NCBI GenBank assembly: GCA_012520945.1
Contig: JAAYNH010000010.1
Span: forward strand, 1 to 33,751
Direction: 5' to 3'
Length of the DNA stretch: 33,751 bases
Source of the DNA: Treponema sp.
Lineage (GTDB): Bacteria > Spirochaetota > Spirochaetia > Treponematales > Treponemataceae
A program made the translations under genes and the position numbers. The stretch's first letter is position 1. Each line of letters opens with the position of its first letter. Below are positions 24,458 through 31,190 of the stretch, in pieces. Below the pieces are notes generated by a model. The model ran no database searches, was not told the DNA's origin, and was given only the letters and a program-made list of their open reading frames with translations.

Positions 24458-24590
24458 AAATTTAAAAACTTTCATTCGAAAAAAAATTAACATTTTTATT
24501 ACACATTGTTCTATTATCAATCTATAATCATTATTGATTTTTTACAAAATTTTTGTTATATTTAAAACATTATTTTATAGGAGAATTCTG

Positions 24591-26093
24591 TTGTTAGAAA
24601 AAATAAAAGAAACAGCAGTTTCCATCGGACCCATTGCTTTGATTGTTTTGCTTCTCAGCTTTACGGTTGTGCCAATGAGCTGGGGGCTGCGTGTTTCATT
24701 TATGTTATGTAGTGTTTTGACAATTTTTGGTTTGGCTTTATTTTTACTCGGTATCGACATTGGTATTCTTCCAATGGGAGAAAGAGTAGGTTCTGCCTTG
24801 GTTAGCAAACGAAATTTACCATTTTTAATAATTGCATCTTTTGTTATTGGTTTTATTATTACAATAGCAGAACCGGGTGTTCATGTTTTCACTACACAAG
24901 TTGTTAGCGTGGATCCTCGTATTAATGCAACTACACTCATGTTTATGATTGCCGGTGGCATAGGTTTTTTCATTTCGCTTGGTTTTGTTCGTGCAGTTTT
25001 TCAAATTCCTATAAGAATTTTTTATATCATCTTTTATGTAATCGCTTTCGTTTTAGCATTTCTTGCACCAAGCGAATTTTTTGCAATTGCTTTTGATGCA
25101 AGTGGTGCTTCTACAGGACCATTGACTGTACCTTTTATTATTGCTTTGGGTATAGGTGTTGCTTCTGTAAGAACTTCAACAGCAGATAGTAAAGCGGATA
25201 ATTTTGGCTTGACAGGTTTGGCTGCAATAGGACCCATTTTGGCTGTGTTAATCATGGGAATGCTTATGACTGGAGGAGAAAGCAATGTTAGCGAAGTTAC
25301 TGTTGCCGTTTCTGAAAGTGAAATAGCTAGCACTGTGGCGACGGGTTCGTTTGCAATGGAAATCAACAAAGTTATACAAATGCTTCCCGATACATTTATG
25401 GACGTTGTAAAAGCATTCTTACCGTTGATAGGTATGTTTATTGTATTTTTAATTTTTCTATTTAAAATGACTTTACGACAAGTAATTAAAATTTCAATCG
25501 GTATGATTTATGCATTTTTAGGTTTGTATTTATTCTTAGTTGGTATTAATGGAGGTTTTATTCCTGCCGGTACAATTATCGGAGAAACATTAGGTAATGG
25601 AAATTACAAAGCATTGTTAGTTATTCTTAGTTTGACATTTGGTGCAATTGTTGTTCTTGCCGAACCTGCTGTTTGGGTTTTGACAAAACAAGTAGAAGAA
25701 ATTTCCGGGGGCCTTATTCGAAGAAAAGTTCTTCTTGTCGCGTTATCAGCCGGTATTTCAATTGGAGTGGGACTTGCGATGGTTCGTGTAATTTTCGGTT
25801 TTAGTATTGCTTATATTCTCGTGCCGTTTTTTGCAGTTGCATTATCTTTGACATTTTTTTGCCCAAAACTTTTTACCGCAATTGCATTTGACTCCGGCAG
25901 TGTTTCATCCGGCCCAATGACAACTTCATTTATTTTATCGTTTGCTTTGGGAGCTTCTAATGCTCTTGGCGGAAATCCTTTGGTTGATGCATTTGGTGTT
26001 ATCGGTTTAGTTGCGGCAGCTCCACTTGTTGCAATTCAAATTTTAGGATTAATTTTTGCAAAAAAATCTGCGAAACAAGGAAAAGAAAAATGA
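24591..26093 (+). CDS. DUF1538 membrane protein with internal duplication
   Basis: This 500-residue integral membrane protein has about twelve to fourteen hydrophobic segments in two homologous halves. EPGVHV (94-99) and FDASGASTGP (168-177) in the first half recur as EPAVWV (358-363) and FDSGSVSSGP (433-442), an offset of about 264 residues. The buried acidic residues and GP turns look like those of a transporter with inverted or tandem repeats. I recall DUF1538 as uncharacterised and sometimes found beside PII-like genes. The start is TTG at 24591 with AGGAG 7 bases upstream; an upstream in-frame TTG at 24534 lacks an RBS. The last bases overlap the PII-like gene by 4 (ATGA). Likely a PII-regulated channel or transporter (inference). 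Confidence 0.82.
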   Translation: MLEKIKETAVSIGPIALIVLLLSFTVVPMSWGLRVSFMLCSVLTIFGLALFLLGIDIGILPMGERVGSALVSKRNLPFLIIASFVIGFIITIAEPGVHVFTTQVVSVDPRINATTLMFMIAGGIGFFISLGFVRAVFQIPIRIFYIIFYVIAFVLAFLAPSEFFAIAFDASGASTGPLTVPFIIALGIGVASVRTSTADSKADNFGLTGLAAIGPILAVLIMGMLMTGGESNVSEVTVAVSESEIASTVATGSFAMEINKVIQMLPDTFMDVVKAFLPLIGMFIVFLIFLFKMTLRQVIKISIGMIYAFLGLYLFLVGINGGFIPAGTIIGETLGNGNYKALLVILSLTFGAIVVLAEPAVWVLTKQVEEISGGLIRRKVLLVALSAGISIGVGLAMVRVIFGFSIAYILVPFFAVALSLTFFCPKLFTAIAFDSGSVSSGPMTTSFILSFALGASNALGGNPLVDAFGVIGLVAAAPLVAIQILGLIFAKKSAKQGKEK

Positions 26094-26719
26094 AATTAAT
26101 TATATCAATTGTACCACGTAATAAAGGCGAAGCTATTACAGAAGCAGTTCGCAAAATCGGTTCATCAGGTGCAACAATTCTTTTTGGAAAAGGTACTGCA
26201 AAAAATCCAATTTTAGGATTGTTCGGTTTTGGTACATCAAATAAAGATTTGATTTATATTTTAGCAAAAAATTCTGAATGTGAAAAATTCAATCAAACAA
26301 TTATTGACTTTACAAAAAATGAAAAAATAGGATTTGGTGTTTTGTTCAATGTTGACTGTGATAGAATTTTGAAAAACGGTTCAATAGAAATTGAAGAAGG
26401 AGAAAATTTTATGGCAACACATACATTAATCACAGTAATCTTAAATGCAGGTTTGGCAGAAGATACAATGGCTGTAGCACGAAAAGCAGGAGCAAGTGGC
26501 GGAACAGTGGTAAATGCTCGCGGAACAGGAAAAGAAGAAGATGAAAAATTCTTTGGTATTACAATTGTACCTGATAAAGAAATGTTAATTATTCTTGCAC
26601 AAAAAGAACAAGAACAAGATATTTTAGAGGCAATTCGTAAGTTGCCATATTTGCAAGAAAAAGGAACCGGAATTACATACTGTACGGATGTGAATAATTT
26701 TTCTCTTTTAGGAAAATAA
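26090..26719 (+). CDS. tandem PII-like signalling protein
   Basis: The 209-residue cytosolic protein is two PII-type ferredoxin-like domains in a row. Domain 1 (about 1-100) contains KIGSSGATILFGKGTA; domain 2 (about 108-205) contains the more typical KAGASGGTVVNARGTG, each followed by a strand ending in LIYILAK or LIILAQK and a terminal helix. The K/RGTG stretch is the PII phosphate-binding part before the T-loop; the T-loops here are short and lack the GlnB uridylylation Tyr. The gene overlaps DUF1538 by 4 bases, so synthesis is coupled. By analogy with GlnK-AmtB and SbtB-SbtA it probably gates its membrane partner in response to a nucleotide (inference). Confidence 0.8.
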   Translation: MKLIISIVPRNKGEAITEAVRKIGSSGATILFGKGTAKNPILGLFGFGTSNKDLIYILAKNSECEKFNQTIIDFTKNEKIGFGVLFNVDCDRILKNGSIEIEEGENFMATHTLITVILNAGLAEDTMAVARKAGASGGTVVNARGTGKEEDEKFFGITIVPDKEMLIILAQKEQEQDILEAIRKLPYLQEKGTGITYCTDVNNFSLLGK

Positions 26720-26791: not shown

Positions 26792-27667
26792 TTAAAATAA
26801 ACTTCTAACTGCATCATTAATTTTTTTTGCAACATACGGATTATTCATTGTGTAAAGATGTACACCATCTACCCCTTGACTTACTAAGTCGACAATTTGG
26901 TCGATAGCATATGCAATGCCCGCATCACGAATTGCTTCTGTGTTATCTCCGTATTTATCCATCATTGCAGAATATTTTTTTGGTAACGCAACACCACAAA
27001 TATTTACCATGCGTTCAATTTGTTTTTTATTTACAACCGGCATAATGCCCGCTTCAATCGGAACATTGATTCCGGCAATTCTTGTTTTTTCTAGAAAATC
27101 ATAAAAGTAATTGTTGTCAAAAAATAACTGACTCATTAAATGTGTAACACCATAATCAACTTTAATTTTTAAGTTTTGAATATCCTCAATCATAGATTTT
27201 GAAGTAGGATGCCCTTCAGGATAGCAAGCTCCTAAAATATTAAATTCTCCGTCATTTCGTTTTGAATCAAACTCTCGAATAAATTTAACTAAGTCTGATG
27301 CGTACAAAAAATCTCCCGCAGGTTCGCGTCCTTCAATTTTGTCTCCACGCAATGCTAAAATATTTTCAACACCGTTTTCACGAAAAGTTTCTAAAACTTT
27401 TGTCGCTTCATCTTTTGTTAAATATGTGCAAGTTAAATGGCTGACACTTTCAACGCCACAAACATTTTTTACGCGTTTAACAATATCCAACGTTGTGTCG
27501 CAGTTTTCGCTACCACCAGCACCATATGTTACGCTAATAAAATCAGGTCTTAAATCTTTCAACTCGTTCAACGCTTTGTAAACGGTCTCAACAGGACTCG
27601 TTTTTTTGGGCGGAAAAACTTCAAAAGAGAATACAGTTTTGTTTTTAAAAATGTCACAAGTTCTCAT
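26792..27667 (-). CDS. metF: methylenetetrahydrofolate reductase
   Basis: The 291-residue flavoprotein reduces 5,10-methylene-THF to 5-methyl-THF for methionine synthesis. It shows the N-terminal FSFEVFPPK with the catalytic Glu, PDFISVTYGAGGS, then HLTC, NILALRGD and the C-terminal PIEAGIMPVVN barrel segment. It is the bacterial MetF length with no regulatory extension. RBS is poor; ATG at 27667 gives the expected N-terminus. The B12 uptake operon lies just upstream on the same strand, and 5-methyl-THF is the partner of B12-dependent methionine synthase, a possible functional link. Confidence 0.94.
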   Translation of the reverse strand: MRTCDIFKNKTVFSFEVFPPKKTSPVETVYKALNELKDLRPDFISVTYGAGGSENCDTTLDIVKRVKNVCGVESVSHLTCTYLTKDEATKVLETFRENGVENILALRGDKIEGREPAGDFLYASDLVKFIREFDSKRNDGEFNILGACYPEGHPTSKSMIEDIQNLKIKVDYGVTHLMSQLFFDNNYFYDFLEKTRIAGINVPIEAGIMPVVNKKQIERMVNICGVALPKKYSAMMDKYGDNTEAIRDAGIAYAIDQIVDLVSQGVDGVHLYTMNNPYVAKKINDAVRSLF

Positions 27668-27874: not shown

Positions 27875-28522
27875 TTAATTTAGTTTATATTCAATTAAAA
27901 TAATTTTTTCAAAAGGTAAATCTGAAAAATTTTTATCTATAGGAAAAATATTTTGTACTAGTTCTGTAGCAGCATTATCTAAAATTAAGCTATCTGAAGT
28001 TTTATGAATTTTACATAATTTAAGTAAACCATTTTCATCAACAGCAATTTTTAATTCCACAGTTCCGGAAATTTTTCTTTGTTTTGCTCTTACAGGATAA
28101 AAAAGATTTTCATTAATTTTAGTTTTCAAAAAATCAATTGCAAAGTTTTGAACAACACCATATGATTTATTTAAATTAACTTCATCAACTGAATCTTGAA
28201 TATTAATTTCTTTTTGATTCATGTTAACAAAATTTTGATTTGATTTTTTTAAATTTTCATTTGATAAATCAGAAAAAAAATAGGGTTCTTCTAAAGACGT
28301 TTTATTAATAGTACTTTCTATTTTATTTTTTGGTAAAATATTATTTTCTTTGGTTATGCTTTTTGTTTGTGTTTTTTTTTCGTTTAATATAATTTGTACA
28401 GGAGAAAAAGCATTTGCATTTTTATAATTTTTAATATTATATTTTATAGGAATAAAAAAAACACCAAACACAATAATTTGCGATAATAAAAATGAAATTA
28501 AATAACGCATATTCTTATTCAT
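27875..28522 (-). CDS. TonB-like energy transducer
   Basis: The 215-residue protein has one N-terminal inner-membrane helix (about 5-25), a long Asn/Lys/Ser-rich periplasmic spacer without the usual Pro repeats, and a C-terminal TonB domain (about 130-215). The domain shows YPVRAKQRKISGTVELKI, VDENGLLKLCKIHKTS and a terminal LIEYKLN strand. It passes energy from an ExbBD complex (not in the window) to the receptor. Its ATG overlaps the receptor stop by 4 bases, so it is dedicated to that receptor. It is last in the B12-controlled operon. Confidence 0.85.
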   Translation of the reverse strand: MNKNMRYLISFLLSQIIVFGVFFIPIKYNIKNYKNANAFSPVQIILNEKKTQTKSITKENNILPKNKIESTINKTSLEEPYFFSDLSNENLKKSNQNFVNMNQKEINIQDSVDEVNLNKSYGVVQNFAIDFLKTKINENLFYPVRAKQRKISGTVELKIAVDENGLLKLCKIHKTSDSLILDNAATELVQNIFPIDKNFSDLPFEKIILIEYKLN

Positions 28523-30510
28523 AATTTTAATTTAGCTCCAATTTTTAAAGACGTATTTGGCATAGGATAATCCTCAACTTCAAAATATTTTTCATTAAGT
28601 AAATTTTTTAAAACAAAATAAAATGTAAATTTGCTTTGTAAATTGTATTCAAAAGAAAAATCGAATAATGAATATGGTTTTAGATAAGTTATATTCAAAT
28701 TTGAAATGTATCTTTTTCCTGTGAAATTATATGAAATAATTGATTTAAAATTTTTATATTTAATAATTGCATCACAAGAAATAATATTTACAGGTGTGTA
28801 CATAATTCTAATATTATCATGCATTGTTAAATTATCTGTGAGCAAAAAAGATAAGTTCAAATCATATTTAGCATTAATTTCAAGCCATGAAAAAATATTT
28901 GTATTTATACTAATGTTTCCGCCAAAATAATTTGCTCTACCTAAGTTTTCAGGCTTCCATTTTCCTAAGTGATTTTGCCATTGAATTTTATTTTTATAAT
29001 GCATAGCAAAAATGCTACCATTAAATGAAAAAGTTTTTTTTATATAATCAAAAATAATATCTCCTCCAAATCCGTCTTCATTTTCAAGATTTGGATTTCC
29101 GGTAGCATATTCTGAATATTTCCAATATAGTTGGTTTAGTGTTGGAAATGTAAACATACGATATATGTTTGCACTAATAATAATCTGTTTGGTTTTTGAT
29201 TTTTCTAATTCATAAGTAAAACCTAATTTTGGAATAGGCATAAATAAATTTTTTGTAAATAAAAATTTTAAACTTGGAAATAATTTAATTTTATTTAAAT
29301 TAATTTCACTGCTTGCACCTATGCCAAAATTAATTTTTGTAATTATTGTATCATTAATAGAACAGTTTGTTGAATCAAGTATATCTGTTGAAAAATCAAA
29401 ACTTGGTGTTAGAGAAAATATGTCATTAAAATAAAATGTTGAACGATTTACAAATGATGCTGTGTGTAAGTTATGTAAACTTATTTCCCCATTAGATAAA
29501 TTTTCCATCGTATCTTCGTTATAATTTGTTTGATCAAATTTATATGAAACTTGAGATTGCATTTCAGCAAGTCCATTGAAAAGAAAAGGAATGTCTAAAT
29601 GAAATGACAAAGCATTAAAAATATTTTTTTGAATGCCATAAATTGTAGCTGAATAAGTTCCTGGTGTTTCGATATTGCCTAAAAAAAAATTTTCATTAAA
29701 TGTTAGTTTAATATCTTTACTTAATTTAAATATACTTGATGCATTCAATGTGACAGTTTTAGCTTCGTTATTTTTACGAACCGTTTTTTCATTGTTATAA
29801 TCATAATATAAAAAATTATTTTTTGCACTGACAAAAGATGAAGAAATTTTCCAGTTTGCAATATTTGTATTTTTTTTTATTGAAGCAAATATGTTTTGAG
29901 TGTCCAAAATATTACTTCCAAAGTAGCATAAGTTTGAAAAGTCTAAATCAAAAATAATTTTTTTTTCAGTGTCTGCATTTTTTTTTGTAATAATATTTAT
30001 AATACCGCCGGCAGCACCGCTAACCGTATATTTATTATCGCTTGCTCCACGAACAATTTCAATTTTTTCTATATCATCAACATTGATTCGTGTTAAATCA
30101 AATTCCCCCGTTTGACTTGAATTAACTTGTATACCATCAACCAAAATAGCAACCGTACTGCCGGCAAAATTTCTAAGATAAACACTGAATGCACTTCCGT
30201 ATGCACCATATTGTTTTATGGAAAGATTTGCATTTTTTCTTAAAACTTCTGCTAATGAGCTTGAGTGAGACTGTTGAATTTGTTTTTCACTAATGGAAAT
30301 TGAGTCTTGTGAATTATTTTTAATTTCAGTAGGTGCATTGGCAGAAATTGAAAAGCTAATTGTGTCTTCTTCTTTTTCTTCAATTGTATTATTTACAATA
30401 TTTTCTACAGTATCTATATTTTCAAAATTATTATTTGCATAAATTTTTATTATAGAAAAAAAACCGATTAAAAAAACCAATGCACAAATATGAAAATTAT
30501 TTTTTTGCAT
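28519..30510 (-). CDS. btuB: TonB-dependent outer membrane receptor, BtuB-like (cobalamin)
   Basis: The 663-residue protein has a signal peptide (about 1-27, ending IYANN) and a plug domain (about 70-180) with SLAEVLRKNANLSIKQYG, the LRNFAGSTVAILVDGIQVN core and IEKIEIVRGASDNKYTVSGA. A 22-strand-type barrel follows, ending with aromatic-rich strands and LKIGAKLKL. The plug matches the BtuB/Cir-like subgroup and the gene follows a cobalamin riboswitch, so B12 or another corrinoid is the likely cargo. The ATG at 30510 is chosen because it begins the signal peptide; upstream in-frame codons belong to the lipoprotein gene, with which it overlaps by 14 bases. The RBS is weak, suggesting coupled translation. 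Confidence 0.88.
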   Translation of the reverse strand: MQKNNFHICALVFLIGFFSIIKIYANNNFENIDTVENIVNNTIEEKEEDTISFSISANAPTEIKNNSQDSISISEKQIQQSHSSSLAEVLRKNANLSIKQYGAYGSAFSVYLRNFAGSTVAILVDGIQVNSSQTGEFDLTRINVDDIEKIEIVRGASDNKYTVSGAAGGIINIITKKNADTEKKIIFDLDFSNLCYFGSNILDTQNIFASIKKNTNIANWKISSSFVSAKNNFLYYDYNNEKTVRKNNEAKTVTLNASSIFKLSKDIKLTFNENFFLGNIETPGTYSATIYGIQKNIFNALSFHLDIPFLFNGLAEMQSQVSYKFDQTNYNEDTMENLSNGEISLHNLHTASFVNRSTFYFNDIFSLTPSFDFSTDILDSTNCSINDTIITKINFGIGASSEINLNKIKLFPSLKFLFTKNLFMPIPKLGFTYELEKSKTKQIIISANIYRMFTFPTLNQLYWKYSEYATGNPNLENEDGFGGDIIFDYIKKTFSFNGSIFAMHYKNKIQWQNHLGKWKPENLGRANYFGGNISINTNIFSWLEINAKYDLNLSFLLTDNLTMHDNIRIMYTPVNIISCDAIIKYKNFKSIISYNFTGKRYISNLNITYLKPYSLFDFSFEYNLQSKFTFYFVLKNLLNEKYFEVEDYPMPNTSLKIGAKLKL

Positions 30511-30949
30511 ACTCACCGAAATATTCAAAGTAGCCATTTTTAATTGTAAATTCTGTTTTTGCGTCATCTAAAGTTGTACAAGATTCTTTACCGTTAGCTT
30601 TATATGCCGTGCCCATTTGACAACCTTTTTCTGTAAGATTTTTATAAGCAACTGCACAATATCCCTTTGGAGCAACGGTGTAATTTTCATCATATTGAAA
30701 ATAAATATAATCATTGGAAATTTCAATTAATTTTCCTGTCCAACCAAAGCCATGACCGCCGTCATCATACAAAATTTCGTTTTCACTAATGATATAGCTG
30801 TCATTGTATTGACTTTTCCATGTTCCATAAATCGAACCGCCTGAGATTTTGGGTTCGTCACAAGACGTAAAAGAAATAACAAATAATAATGCTGTCAAAA
30901 CAAGAATTGTGCAAGAAAAAATCTTGCGTGAAAAATAGATGTGTTTCAT
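30497..30949 (-). CDS. riboswitch-controlled lipoprotein, possible corrinoid-binding accessory
   Basis: The 150-residue lipoprotein is predicted from the lipobox FTSC (Cys30). The mature part is one small beta-rich domain starting GGSIYGTWKSQYNDSYIIS, with DDGGHGFGWTGKLIEI and DYIYFQYDENY. The GTW start and repeated aromatic strands look lipocalin-like, although no family match is certain. The ATG at 30949 has AGGAG upstream; an earlier in-frame opening lies inside the riboswitch expression platform. It is the first gene after the cobalamin riboswitch and overlaps the receptor gene. Candidate surface or periplasmic corrinoid-handling protein, as BtuG is in Bacteroides, but unrelated in sequence (inference). 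Confidence 0.72.
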   Translation of the reverse strand: MKHIYFSRKIFSCTILVLTALLFVISFTSCDEPKISGGSIYGTWKSQYNDSYIISENEILYDDGGHGFGWTGKLIEISNDYIYFQYDENYTVAPKGYCAVAYKNLTEKGCQMGTAYKANGKESCTTLDDAKTEFTIKNGYFEYFGEYAKK

Positions 30950-30985: not shown

Positions 30986-31012
30986 AAAAAATTGTTTCTT
31001 CATACGAAGAAC
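30986..31012 (-). terminator. possible riboswitch expression-platform terminator
   Basis: Minus-strand GTTCTTC (31012-31006) and GAAGAA (31001-30996) form a short stem with a GTAT loop, and T6 follows at 30991-30986. It lies between the aptamer and the first gene, where ligand-dependent termination would be expected. The stem is short and low in GC. Confidence 0.5.
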
Positions 31013-31014
31013 TT

Positions 31015-31156
31015 ATGCATCAATGTTTCCTGACTTACATATATAAGCAAAATCGCCTTCCCAAAATTTTCTTTTTCAGTGGCATAATAATTTTGCAAAA
31101 TGTTTACAGTTGCGCATCCAGTGCAGGATTTTCACCTGACTTCCATTGTAATGCAT
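31015..31156 (-). ncRNA. cobalamin riboswitch
   Basis: Read on the minus strand, the closing helix ATGCAT...ATGCAT (31156-31151 with 31020-31015) is extended by CAAT/ATTG. Conserved parts in order are GGTGAAAATCC (31136-31126), a GCACTGGATGCGCAACTGTA stretch, the GCCACTG B12 box (31083-31077), GGGAAGGCGA (31062-31053) and AAGTCAGGAAAC (31036-31025). This is the cobalamin aptamer order. It precedes the lipoprotein-btuB-tonB operon and should lower expression when B12 is present. Confidence 0.92.
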
Positions 31157-31161
31157 GACTA

Positions 31162-31190
31162 ATAATAAAAGAAATAATATTTTTTGACAA
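31162..31190 (-). promoter_or_regulatory. promoter of the B12 uptake operon
   Basis: Minus strand TTGTCA (31190-31185), 17 bases, TATTAT (31167-31162): each matches consensus at 5 of 6. The start point, near 31155, coincides with the 5' end of the riboswitch aptamer. Confidence 0.85.

Follow-up and report, generated by a model that had tools for sequence, protein, structure and literature searches.

The locus considered here raises the question of what a PII-like signalling protein does when its gene is joined to that of DUF1538, a membrane protein whose family most genome annotations still list as a 'domain of unknown function'. The window, by which we mean the whole 33,751-nucleotide stretch of Treponema sp. 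DNA that was analysed (contig JAAYNH010000010.1), carries the two genes in tandem on the forward strand. In the genome annotation 'P-II family nitrogen regulator' already appears next to 'DUF1538', and no paper describing their pairing was found in the open-licence literature; the genes are known, but a DUF1538-PII system appears to be undescribed. Our preferred reading, to which we give a probability of roughly 0.55, is that an UmpAB-type antiporter is gated by a dedicated PII-like sensor.

The fused DUF1538 protein and its overlapping PII-like gene

Features of the two genes are collected in Table 1. The DUF1538 open reading frame, which begins with TTG, encodes a 500-residue product with two Pfam matches to PF07556 (407 bits, E=1.2e-122; gathering score 22.6), and an internal repeat alignment gave 34% identity between the halves (E=3e-28). 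The EP motifs begin at residues 94 and 358 and the FD..GP motifs at residues 168 and 433, offsets of 264 and 265 respectively, which bears out the internal duplication claimed in the initial annotation. In the 100 homologous systems compared, all 199 domains scored for the EP motif carry its Glu, and all 200 scored for the FD motif carry its Asp. The ATG of the PII reading frame lies inside the last DUF1538 codons, so that the genes overlap by the four bases originally noted. Its 209-residue product was likewise recognised as a duplication, with two matches to PF00543 (53 bits; Pfam cut-off 25) and halves 26% identical in an internal repeat alignment (E=8e-8). Comparison with single-domain relatives showed that domain 2 retains their consensus RGTGxxExxxFFGIxIxPEKE and PGxGI.

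Table 1. Positions in the window of the DUF1538 and PII-like genes and of their sequence features
Feature	Position	Strand	Remarks
AGGAG, Shine-Dalgarno-like, DUF1538 gene	24579..24583	+	7 bases 5' of TTG, read in sequence
Fused two-domain DUF1538 membrane protein (UmpA-UmpB-like), 500 aa	24591..26093	+	PF07556 x2
DUF1538 domain 1 (UmpA-like half)	24633..25265	+	
EPGVHV, half 1, E94	24870..24887	+	invariant Glu at helix break; candidate ion/proton site
FDASGASTGP, half 1, D169	25092..25121	+	invariant Asp
DUF1538 domain 2 (UmpB-like half)	25428..26054	+	
EPAVWV, half 2, E358	25662..25679	+	
FDSGSVSSGP, half 2, D434	25887..25916	+	
AAGGA, Shine-Dalgarno-like, PII gene	26077..26081	+	within DUF1538 reading frame, read in sequence
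ATGA overlap, PII gene start and DUF1538 gene stop	26090..26093	+	
Tandem PII-like protein, 209 aa	26090..26719	+	PF00543 x2
PII domain 1, more diverged copy	26090..26356	+	20.6 bits, alone under Pfam cut-off
T-loop region, PII domain 1	26183..26233	+	low pLDDT
PII domain 2, keeps consensus of single-domain relatives	26423..26698	+	35.5 bits; alignment
T-loop region, PII domain 2, NARGTGKEEDEKFFGITIVPDKE	26513..26581	+	strongly conserved
B-loop, PII domain 2 (KGTGI)	26657..26680	+	GxG kept, canonical Lys/Arg after GxG lost

The initial annotation had taken the substrate of the membrane protein to be undescribed, which is wrong at the family level. UmpA and UmpB of Halomonas zhaodongensis are DUF1538 proteins; E. 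coli KNabc co-expressing them regained tolerance of salt and alkali, its everted vesicles showed Na+(Li+,K+)/H+ antiport that depended on pH, and the two proteins co-precipitate as a heterodimer (PMC5484666). DUF1538 also figures in a list of genomic predictors of bacterial growth pH (PMC13255231). The window protein has the module arrangement that marks UmpAB, an UmpA-like followed by an UmpB-like DUF1538 module with conserved Glu and Asp. The UmpA model fits best on residues 4-225 (138 bits) and the UmpB model on residues 267-483 (134 bits), against equivalog cut-offs of 490 and 500 (NF041627/NF041628). Since these scores fall under the cut-offs, the window protein is classed on sequence as UmpAB-like and not as an assured equivalog, and with scores so far below them the ion carried could differ. 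A further difference is that UmpAB consists of two separate proteins, whereas the window encodes a single chain. No PII gene is described for UmpAB, and the paper characterising it does not mention PII (PMC5484666); in the window a PII gene adjoins, and in relatives closer to the UmpA and UmpB models (314-365 bits) a single PII gene comes next.

An AlphaFold2 model of the DUF1538 protein (pLDDT 82.7, pTM 0.84) places the Glu and Asp of the EP and FD motifs at helix breaks, as would be expected of candidate ion/proton sites. Because this model has no confident relative among PDB folds (Foldseek best E 0.036 at TM 0.15), a trimeric or elevator architecture is unsupported. The VIA fold search gave a best Z of 5.6 for a partial helical match, and a sequence search of A2 against the PDB returned no match up to E=10.

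For the tandem protein the PII fold that had been suggested was recovered by prediction. The AlphaFold2 model (pLDDT 80) contains two ferredoxin-like PII domains, and in a VIA fold search every leading match was a PII protein (Z up to 10.7), GlnK, GlnB and SbtB among them; domain 2 matched SbtB bound to AMP/cAMP with a Z of 9.2 and an rmsd of 2.2-2.5 A over 81-83 residues. The canonical GlnB/GlnK B-loop, GxG[KR][IV]F, occurs in 0 of 99 homologues, the B-loop of the window protein aligning as KGTGIT, and the C-terminal (C-loop) Arg pair of GlnB/GlnK has no counterpart in the alignment. Because both the Lys/Arg after GxG and the Arg pair are absent, the tandem protein is likely to have a ligand or a binding mode other than that of GlnB/GlnK.

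Beyond the pair, a methylenetetrahydrofolate reductase gene at 26792-27667(-) converges on the PII gene. A TonB gene lies at 27875-28522(-), with a TonB-dependent receptor gene nearby at 28519-30567(-) and a cobalamin riboswitch upstream of the latter at 31006-31173(-).

Conservation of the pair across genomes

The initial annotation had made its proposal depend on a neighbourhood conserved across genomes, and such a neighbourhood was found. In loci selected by DUF1538 alone, 104 distinct PII proteins are encoded directly 3' of DUF1538 in Spirochaetota, Desulfobacterota, Bacillota and Alphaproteobacteria, the last two being represented in the survey by plasmids only. DUF1538 itself was present in 145 of 393 Spirochaetota and 18 of 297 Desulfobacterota genomes, and both genes were present in the same 9 records of 72,556 plasmids. 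The spacing is tight: the PII start falls between -20 and +15 nt of the DUF1538 stop in 104/106 cases, at -4, the exact ATGA-type overlap, in 43 and at -8 in 20. Chance adjacency of the two genes is ruled out by this survey, and the pairing is real and widespread. No third conserved operon member was found; Pfs/LuxS and BirA are neighbours in no more than some Treponema-like genomes.

Exceptions are few. DUF1538 lacks a PII neighbour in two genomes (G294 and G373) and in one copy in a third (G280), all three of which encode tandem PII elsewhere; in G224 a second DUF1538 copy without its own PII follows a DUF1538-PII pair, and the remaining gaps are contig ends or fragments. When presence and absence were scored irrespective of linkage, tandem PII was found in 20/20 DUF1538-positive and 2/20 DUF1538-negative Spirochaetota genomes. 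The two negatives that have it belong to one genus and carry it at a syntenic Pfs-PII-BirA site (L160:5792-6448(+) and L161:4953-5582(-)), with a more degenerate domain 1, and such an orphan is what would be expected after loss of the transporter. Among approximately 57 DUF1538-negative Desulfobacterota genomes there was no full-length match.

Among the outlying members of the survey are very diverged DUF1538-PII pairs in two 1.2-Mb genomes (L131 and L132, from G318 and G326), which sit on a long tree branch. The arrangement in G224 (L147) reads DUF1538-PII-DUF1538 in one strand order, with two systems adjoining.

Proposed regulation of an UmpAB-type antiporter by PII

Several transporters are already known to be paired with PII proteins, and GlnK inserts its T-loop into AmtB, and SbtB into SbtA (PMC8352866). 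AmtB-GlnK resembles the window in that transporter and PII genes adjoin, and its T-loop plugging is the model for the gate proposed here; in contrast, the host genome has no AmtB (PF00909, present in 14/14 controls), the window PII is doubled and the residues with which GlnK binds ATP phosphates are missing from it. No GlnB/GlnK-type PII was found in the host genome either, which is 95% complete. SbtA-SbtB, the cyanobacterial bicarbonate transporter and its PII-like regulator, shares with the window a single operon and, as proposed here, Na+-linked secondary transport, and domain 2 superposes on SbtB. However, SbtA has no detected relation to the window transporter, for which only DUF1538 was matched in Pfam; the CGPxGC redox loop at the C-terminus of some SbtB proteins is absent from the window PII, which ends in FSLLGK; and the window PII is doubled. 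The PG0541 family, found behind RND pumps, is likewise a PII-like protein dedicated to a transporter, and besides the tandem protein the host has only one PII, a PG0541-family member whose gene immediately follows an RND efflux pump (L036:6692-6979(+)). The window PII reaches 19.4-20.5 bits against the NCBIfam cut-off of 45 for this family, is tandem and accompanies a different transporter. The best reading of these comparisons is that DUF1538-PII works in the manner of SbtA-SbtB with unrelated parts, and is a member of neither that system nor AmtB-GlnK nor PG0541.

The gene pair and its conservation, the domain-level folds, the conserved acidic residues and the loss of the canonical ATP-phosphate residues are the observations from which our proposal starts. 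The DUF1538 protein would be a single-chain UmpA-UmpB antiporter exchanging monovalent cations (Na+, Li+, K+) for protons, with candidate ion/proton sites in each half at E94/E358 and D169/D434. The tandem PII would be its dedicated cytosolic regulator, whose small-molecule ligand, probably a nucleotide or a metabolite resembling one, would bind in the cleft beside the B-loop (GxG). In one state of the PII protein the T-loop would stop transport by docking on the transporter from the cytosolic side; we propose the conserved T-loop of domain 2 as this contact. These points, from contact between the proteins to the class of ligand and the direction of control, are what we infer, as is antiport by the fused homologue, and translational coupling would hold the two proteins at a fixed ratio.

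The PII protein could instead gate a transporter with a different substrate, DUF1538 moving a nitrogen- or carbon-related metabolite or an anion and the antiport of UmpAB being a side activity of overexpression. The transporters known to be PII targets (AmtB, NrtBCD and SbtA) do carry nitrogen or carbon nutrients, and the window protein is distant from UmpAB. However, the sole experimental data for the family describe Na+/Li+/K+:H+ antiport (PMC5484666), neither acidic residue varies across the 100 systems, no neighbouring gene points to another substrate, and a nitrogen substrate in particular fits poorly with a host that has neither AmtB nor GlnB/GlnK; we consider this reading unlikely, if plausible. 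It is improbable that the PII protein, instead of being an on/off gate, is a partner or assembly factor or takes part in the transport cycle itself, for example by delivering a ligand or buffering it. Such a role would suit a protein that is kept with the transporter nearly without exception and whose domains multiply to two or three, the extra copies diverging in their ligand regions; however, no PII is listed among the genes on the clone from which Halomonas umpAB was active in E. coli (PMC5484666). PII is therefore not needed for basal activity; a regulatory role is more likely than one in the transport machinery, and PII proteins with known transporter partners do act as regulators.

The two genomes that keep tandem PII at Pfs-PII-BirA without DUF1538 bear on a further explanation, that the protein regulates another target, a soluble enzyme or several, and is merely co-expressed with the antiporter. 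Since they retain it after transporter loss, another partner may exist; yet the linkage and co-occurrence extend over four phyla, and the greater degeneration of domain 1 in those two genomes fits the loss of a partner, which makes this explanation very improbable.

Under the preferred reading of a PII-gated antiporter, PII signalling would reach into ion and pH homeostasis through a conserved partner of a cation/proton antiporter family. The pair suggests a widespread way for bacteria to switch ion antiport by a metabolic signal; the PII partner of DUF1538 would pose a concrete ligand-search problem, and a regulatory partner is supplied for a family otherwise known by its DUF number.

PII domain number and transporter architecture

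The initial annotation had also inferred a matched stoichiometry from the two-fold repeats of both proteins. This holds insofar as fused transporters always come with at least two PII domains: the fused transporter of approximately 500 residues has two in 68/68 uncut loci (3 more are cut by locus ends), the long fused transporter (620-750 residues, with inserts) has three in 18/20 and two in 1 (1 cut), and 2 other fused cases have three, with 1 more cut off. It fails for split UmpA+UmpB transporters, which have one PII domain (7) or two (3), and for the second fused lineage, with its three. PII domains are more numerous where the transporter is fused, without the match being strictly 2:2.

The unrooted DUF1538 tree separates a group of fused/two-PII loci (70 rows, support 100) from a group of long/three-PII loci (support 99). 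Because split loci attach to each of these groups, there have been at least two DUF1538 fusions, one in association with two PII domains and the other with three. The tree hints that PII duplication in split loci (L096-L098) was independent of that in fused loci, and AU tests rejected neither an independent nor a shared origin (p 0.4-0.6). Read-through of an in-frame stop separating umpA from umpB was considered for the split loci L100, L107 and L108 and rejected, these being ordinary adjacent genes with the stops TAA, TGA and TGA respectively.

According to a review, PII control of transporters seems to be limited to trimeric ones (PMC10710835). UmpAB was reported as a heterodimer, and the docking of trimeric tandem PII on three fused subunits is hypothetical here; the natural one-, two- and three-domain versions would offer a test of how PII symmetry matches its target. 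Taken across the family, we put at about even odds the wider proposal that dedicated PII proteins of one, two or three domains gate UmpAB-type antiporters widely, tying pH and sodium homeostasis to a metabolite through a pocket unlike that of GlnB/GlnK.

Three-domain PII proteins (approximately 370 aa) lie behind long DUF1538 at L121:5244-6362(+), in L101, L128 and others; as these escape the Pfam P-II model or score under its cut-off, they are easily overlooked. At L119 (G147) a long/three-PII and a long/two-PII system adjoin in divergent orientation.
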